From contig JACFNM010000057.1 of assembly GCA_019454915.1 (NCBI GenBank), positions 1 through 16,201 of the forward strand: 16,201 bases of DNA, in the 5' to 3' direction. Below, one piece after another: positions 13,104-13,817 of the stretch. The first letter of the stretch is position 1. Each line of letters starts with the position of its first letter. Below the pieces are notes generated by a model, which did not search any database, was not told the origin of the DNA, and saw nothing but the letters and a program-made list of their open reading frames with translations. The position numbers and the translations under genes were made by a program. The stretch is from Chitinophagaceae bacterium. GTDB lineage: Bacteria > Bacteroidota > Bacteroidia > Chitinophagales > Chitinophagaceae.

Positions 13104-13817
13104 TTATCCGTTAACCAGCGTTCCAACTTTTTCTCCGTTTACAACTTTGAGGAGGTTGCCCGGTTTGTTCATGTCGAACACGATGATCGGTAATTTGTTC
13201 TCCATGCAAAGTGTAAAGGCGGTCATATCCATGATTTTGAGGTTCTTGTCAATACATTCTTTGAAAGAGATCGTATCGTATTTGGTGGCAGACGGATTTT
13301 TTTCCGGGTCGGCTGTGTAGATGCCGTCCACTCTTGTGCCTTTTAAGATTACGTCTGCTTTGATTTCAATTGCTCTTAAGGAACCCGCTGTATCGGTAGT
13401 GAAATAGGGATTTCCGGTTCCGGCGCCGAAGATGACAATTCTTTTCTTCTCGAGGTGCCGGATGGCTCTCCTTCGGATATAAGGCTCGGCGATCTACTCC
13501 ATCTTGATGGCGCTCAATAAACGGGTATAAAGACCTACCTTCTCCAGCGAGGCCTGCAGCGCCATACCGTTAATCACCGTGGCCAGCATGCCCATATAAT
13601 CACCGTGTGCCCTTTCAATACCCGTTTCCGCTTCATTCATCCCGCGGTAAATGTTACCGCCGCCAATCACAATGGCTATCTCCACTCCCGCAAGATGAGC
13701 TGCCTTAATCTCAGTAGCATAGCTCATCAAAATATCCGGGTCTAATCCAAAACCACTGTTTCCCATTAATGATTCTCCGGATAGTTTAAGCAGAATGCGA
13801 CTGAATTTCTTTTGCAT
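13104..13817 (-). pseudogene. pyrH: UMP kinase interrupted by an in-frame amber codon
   Basis: PyrH phosphorylates UMP to UDP, an essential step in pyrimidine nucleotide supply. Read as one frame this gene has 238 codons including the final TAA, the normal family length, but codon 108 is TAG (13494-13496). Before it lie KLSGESLMG (11-19), VIGGGNIYRG (50-59), ERAHGDYMGMLATVINGMAL (68-87) and TRLLSAIKME (98-107). After it, in the same frame, come IAEPYIRRRAIRHLEKKR (109-126), the ATP-site GAGTGNPYFTTD (131-142), ADVILKGTRVDGIYTADPEKN and the C-terminal KPGNLLKVVNGEKVGTL. Relatives normally carry Gln here, so a single CAG to TAG change explains the break. Nothing else has decayed. It could be a sequencing error, a very recent mutation with another copy elsewhere, or suppression of the stop. 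The 107-residue N-terminal fragment alone lacks the ATP-binding half. Confidence 0.9.
13494..13496 (-). other. In-frame TAG codon inside pyrH
   Basis: The plus strand reads CTA here, giving TAG on the coding strand between Glu107 (GAG) and Ile109 (ATC). The flanking frame is open on both sides for the full family length. The next in-frame start-like codon is the GTG at 13329-13331, too far downstream to rescue the enzyme. Confidence 0.9.

Follow-up and report, generated by a model that had tools for sequence, protein, structure and literature searches.

An in-frame TAG codon in the pyrH gene of a Chitinophagaceae draft genome: most likely a consensus error

The gene for UMP kinase, pyrH, is interrupted at codon 108 by an in-frame TAG in a draft genome of a Chitinophagaceae bacterium. 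The locus raises the question of whether this codon belongs to the organism or to its assembly. If the TAG were genuine, a normally essential gene would be kept working by natural amber suppression. The window, i.e., the whole stretch of DNA that was analysed, is an entire contig (C268) of 16,201 bases. Ten other reading frames of this contig were scanned, and nine of them contain recognisable Pfam domains. These frames include dehydrogenase E1, PspC-type, HU, pyridoxamine phosphate oxidase, SNF2 helicase and S30EA ribosomal protein, and the frame with a lyase domain is taken to be argH.

The initial annotation, which gave no strand, had placed a TAG at codon 108 of an otherwise intact pyrH, and both parts of that description are borne out. 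When the minus strand is translated from 13817 to 13104, the TAG is the sole internal stop, and the rest of the frame is open. With the stop written as X, the protein matches the NCBIfam profile TIGR02075 (pyrH_bact) over its whole length, from position 2 to 233 of 233, with 339.7 bits against a curated cut-off of 243.9. The whole-genome profile search likewise returned the gene with 339.2 bits and “1 TAG” within. The coordinates of the gene, of the other broken genes in the assembly and of a tRNA-associated repeat are collected in Table 1.

Table 1. Coordinates of pyrH and its in-frame TAG, of other interrupted genes in the same assembly, and of palindrome-bearing tRNA-Arg-like copies
Feature	Location	Strand	Stop codon	Evidence or remark
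pyrH (UMP kinase) frame, one interruption	13104..13817	-		237 codons plus TAA; TIGR02075 above cut-off with X at codon 108
In-frame stop, codon 108	13494..13496	-	TAG	Sense codon at the same site in 110/110 relatives
N-terminal open piece, 107 codons	13497..13817	-		Translation
C-terminal piece, 129 codons, without further stops or gaps	13107..13493	-		Translation; identical to P0003 over the piece
nuoL	L088:10928-10930, contig C112		TAG	TIGR01974 2-180 before the stop, 184-628 after
argB	L097:723-725		TAG	TIGR00761 2-231 across the stop; solved structures align across
gltX	L092:645-647, contig C150		TGA	TIGR00464 1-355 before the stop, 362-469 after
ArsR-like regulator	L239:6746-6748		TAG	NF033788 across the stop, 64.6 bits, cut-off 55
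ElaA-like acetyltransferase	L188:4728-4730		TAA	NF007644 across the stop, 98.4 bits, below cut-off 171
Three probable breaks, sites	L093:1871-1873, L220:3751-3753, L082:1121-1123			
AsmA-like protein (probable)			TAG	No domain across the stop
PKD-domain protein (probable)			TGA	Secretion tail behind the stop
Lactonase-like protein (probable)			TAA	Weak matches only
Palindrome copies, own genome	Contig C448 (L069, L322), C713 (L054)			
Palindrome copies, relatives	L320, L321, L323, L324, L325			

Codon 108 was compared among the pyrH genes of 110 relatives read as DNA, comprising 30 loci from the profile search and 80 loci kept from a further search. Gln is encoded in 102 of the 110, by CAG in 64 and CAA in 38, and the remaining 8 have Lys, Glu, Gly or Arg. 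The earlier statement that relatives have Gln (CAG) at this site thus holds for the amino acid, and for the codon in no more than the 64. An internal stop was found in none of the 110 genes, and the conservation of TAG expected of a recoded codon is therefore absent. In the profile search of 58 genomes including the studied one, pyrH scores above the cut-off, free of stops, in 56 of the 57 relatives; the 57th, a draft that is 75% complete (G040), has no pyrH above the cut-off.

A closer comparison is provided by a search of ~5.8 billion proteins with pyrH carrying X at codon 108, in which 8,000 candidates were scored and the best 120 listed. Among these 120, residue 108 is Gln in 119 and Glu in 1, and the named best matches are UMP kinases of Chitinophagaceae, e.g., of Agriterribacter and Terrimonas. 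One match, P0003, is a protein of 237 residues that has Gln at position 108 and is the same as the studied pyrH at all 236 other residues, while P0004, which differs from P0003 by 1 residue, has Gln at 108 too. P0003 is encoded on 12 contigs, the longest of 5,176 bases, which may come from another strain and may not be independent of one another. Judged from this identity, P0003 would come from the same species as the studied pyrH and so represent a same-species sequence without the change. None of the 120 matches listed for the truncated 107-residue form is nearly identical to it (the best reaches 79% identity), in a database whose clustering at 90% may hide such a match.

The evidence that weighs most on the pyrH TAG comes from other broken genes in the same assembly. 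The latter comprises 4.64 Mb in 802 contigs, with 95.5% completeness and 0.97% contamination, figures that suggest that the genome is probably a metagenome bin. A scan of 1.137 Mb was made for stops with a coding-like frame on both sides, with a sensitivity of ~67% under a stricter score filter and ~95% under a looser one. A first strict coding-potential scan missed pyrH and nuoL and was loosened, and the lists obtained after loosening were rich in operon junctions and in frames without coding character. Out of four lists (17, 19, 127 and 28 stops), which partly overlap, 34 stops (15 TAG, 9 TAA and 10 TGA) were chosen by eye for profile tests, making 35 with pyrH (16 TAG, 9 TAA and 10 TGA). 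A family match spans the stop in 6 of the 35, namely in pyrH, nuoL, argB and the ArsR-like regulator (all TAG), in gltX (TGA) and in the ElaA-like acetyltransferase (TAA). Three further breaks, one per stop codon, are graded probable, and the remaining 26 stops, across which no family match runs, are natural gene ends, operon junctions or frames of no named family. Similar breaks therefore occur elsewhere in the assembly and involve more than one codon. The nine breaks in 1.137 Mb, pyrH counted, are a lower bound, and if they are random substitutions the error rate is ~1.4 to 2.1 per 10,000 bases, 88% coding being assumed.

Comparison with relatives reveals further anomalies beside some of these stops. 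The stops in argB and gltX are single and confined to the studied genome, since none of the 23 relatives with argB above the cut-off and none of the 36 with gltX above the cut-off has a stop; gltX has no second copy above the cut-off in its own genome, and an invariant residue, on which 29 of 29 relatives agree, is changed three codons before its TGA. In one relative draft (57% complete; G048:C106:2120-3513), gltX is split into two neighbouring pieces that lie in different frames, perhaps through a frameshift error. The interrupted nuoL differs from that of a 97% identical relative at 17 of 630 residues, and 6 of these differences, the TAG one among them, fall within 12 codons, a burst whose chance over all windows is ~8e-5. 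Four of the six occur at positions that are invariant in 119/119 or 120/120 of the aligned matches listed, and the burst resembles a stretch of faulty consensus, not evolution under selection. No such burst is found in pyrH, where codon 47 alone also departs from positions at least 95% conserved and is shared by P0003. An error in pyrH would accordingly be of a single base, lacking neighbouring changes.

The assembly is not uniformly bad, since the 116 above-cut-off matches to three large families include one that is wrecked by many stops and none that is broken by a single stop. Eight stops (3 TGA, 2 TAG and 3 TAA) fall within an ABC-transporter-like match at G000:C723:543-956, which is probably a gene in decay or a frame that matches by chance. 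The control region, 400 kb from a relative assembled in nine contigs (G008), yielded 0 breaks in 10 tested of 48 candidates, where 2.1 to 3.2 were expected at the rate of the studied genome; the control is weak and only suggestive. When proteins were compared reciprocally with those of 400 kb from the same relative, 0 stops were found in 11,296 and 9,559 aligned codons; the overlap was small and did not extend to the broken genes. The nine break sites lie nearer contig ends (p 0.04), 4 of 9 being within 2 kb of an end against 17% of sampled bases, a post hoc result that left out 18 fetched contigs of ~2 kb and carries little weight.

The RF00005 search returned 33 tRNA matches in the genome, for 31 of which an anticodon was named by ARAGORN. 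A tRNA lacking an ARAGORN anticodon was read by eye as Leu(GAG), and in the 33rd match palindromes interrupt a tRNA-Arg-like copy. The 20-bp palindrome CCTGCCTGNCGGCAGGCAGG occupies one exact D-arm position in tRNA-Arg-like copies, which are mostly partial and often lie beside an intact tRNA-Arg. On contig C448, the anticodon loop of two copies contains another palindrome at a distance of 37 bp, and the N letters that separate two palindrome-bearing tRNA-like copies (L069, ~3319-3417) represent either a gap in the scaffold or masked sequence. With GAGC after it, the palindrome is present in 7 of the 57 relatives, and 5 of these 7 belong to the same genus as the studied genome, of which 11 relatives were covered. 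The D-arm position is the same in all five relatives' loci that were read, 4 of which also contain an intact tRNA-Arg according to ARAGORN. A related palindrome pattern had 0 matches in viral contigs, and a literature search on the palindrome in tRNA-Arg-like copies listed no paper on the subject. The palindrome might have arisen as a repeat derived from a tRNA, or else by insertion at a fixed target.

Three readings other than a wrong base have to be weighed against these observations. Amber suppression or readthrough, raised in the initial annotation together with the check for a CUA anticodon, would yield full-length UMP kinase from the gene as assembled, and TAG indeed accounts for 5 of the 9 breaks graded firm or probable. 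No CUA anticodon is present among the 33 tRNA matches (RF00005 and ARAGORN) in a draft that lacks some tRNAs every genome needs; tRNAs for Tyr, Phe and Trp are uncalled by ARAGORN, and with a set so incomplete a suppressor could be unassembled. A loose pattern of CTAA plus a T-arm had 357 matches in the genome and 490 for the backward control and is uninformative. Release factor 1 is intact (prfA with 503 bits and no stops). TAG terminates 61 of the 275 ORFs counted without overlap in 408.7 kb. The frame stays open no further past TAG than past TAA (p 0.64) or past TAA and TGA pooled (p 0.37), with p 0.06 against TGA alone. TAG is thus an ordinary stop in this genome, because it ends 61 of the 275 ORFs and is followed by no longer frame than TAA, and a code in which TAG is reassigned is at odds with this use and with the presence of release factor 1. 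The firm and probable breaks comprise 5 TAG, 2 TGA and 2 TAA; with an expectation of 8/23 one-step routes to a stop, the share of TAG is not above chance for 5 of 9 (p 0.17) or 4 of 6 (p 0.12), even though TAG was the most-tested stop (16 of 35). The breaks are hence neither confined to TAG nor enriched in it, and TGA and TAA break core genes too. Furthermore, the residue found in relatives differs by site, being Gln in pyrH, Leu, Ile or Val in nuoL, and Leu in argB (22 of 23 relatives). The suppressor and readthrough option thus finds neither a CUA anticodon among the 33 tRNA matches nor a TAG-specific signal, and we consider it very improbable. The same holds for a strain with real amber codons in pyrH, nuoL, argB and others that survives by an unassembled suppressor tRNA or strong readthrough, which we regard as scarcely credible.

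An ordinary pseudogene, its function taken over by a further, intact UMP kinase gene outside the assembled contigs, could be accommodated by an assembly of 802 contigs that is ~95% complete. The check for a second UMP kinase, proposed with the original observation, turned up a single pyrH match above the family cut-off in this ~95% complete draft. Two further profile matches, at 25.1 and 20.5 bits, are parts of longer frames, and no relative has a second above-cut-off pyrH among the matches listed. Besides the stop, the gene has no decay, and a pseudogene is accordingly most improbable. A real but rare nonsense allele, carried by some cells or by a strain that is dying or has another source of UMP kinase and kept by the assembler as the variant, deserves somewhat more attention. 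The single-base change with no other decay is as expected of a very young allele, and the neighbouring changes of the kind found in nuoL are missing from pyrH. Against it, several other core genes are broken, including gltX without a second copy above the cut-off, and true nulls in both pyrH and gltX of living cells are unlikely; moreover, the only copies of the same protein that were found have Gln. We regard such an allele as unlikely, though as the main rival of a sequence error.

A consensus error, i.e., a wrong base of assembly or read origin in a fragmented draft, is the reading that we favour, with a probability of about 0.86, because an otherwise identical protein, encoded on 12 contigs, has Gln at the site and because other core genes of the same assembly are broken by TAG, TGA and TAA alike. 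The possibility of a sequence error, named in the initial annotation, is in this way strengthened, and the pyrH TAG is most likely not biological. One wrong contig base would suffice to make pyrH look broken, as would be the case at several other places in the assembly, and read errors or thin local read support may lie behind the wrong bases. In the organism itself, UMP kinase is most likely intact and ordinary, with Gln at 108. The points that speak against an error are the lack of a burst in pyrH, an assembly that is not uniformly bad, the weak control with the nine-contig relative, and the possibility that the 12 contigs with Gln belong to another strain. Where an essential gene of a fragmented draft has a lone in-frame stop, caution suggests that near-identical proteins and other genes of the same assembly be compared before suppression is invoked.

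Natural amber suppression and stop-codon recoding exist as known systems, and pyrH resembles them in having one in-frame TAG with an open frame on both sides. It differs from them in that the TAG is not conserved and no suppressor tRNA was found, and the genome differs in having TGA and TAA breaks too and an intact release factor 1; among the 10 of 38 literature matches listed, no paper on amber suppression of pyrH was found. Compared with bacterial UMP kinase PyrH (TIGR02075), the studied gene is alike in its full length and its score above the curated cut-off with the stop as X, and unlike in the one internal TAG of this assembly. Truncated proteins are taken as a sign of sequence error in a part of PMC6785717, and according to a portion of PMC7111523, local assembly errors left uncurated in metagenome genomes spread incorrect protein-coding sequences to public databases. 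To the uncurated metagenome-assembled genomes dealt with in that portion, the present assembly is similar in being a fragmented draft, and probably also in having isolated wrong bases in otherwise normal genes and a local patch of wrong sequence, here in nuoL.
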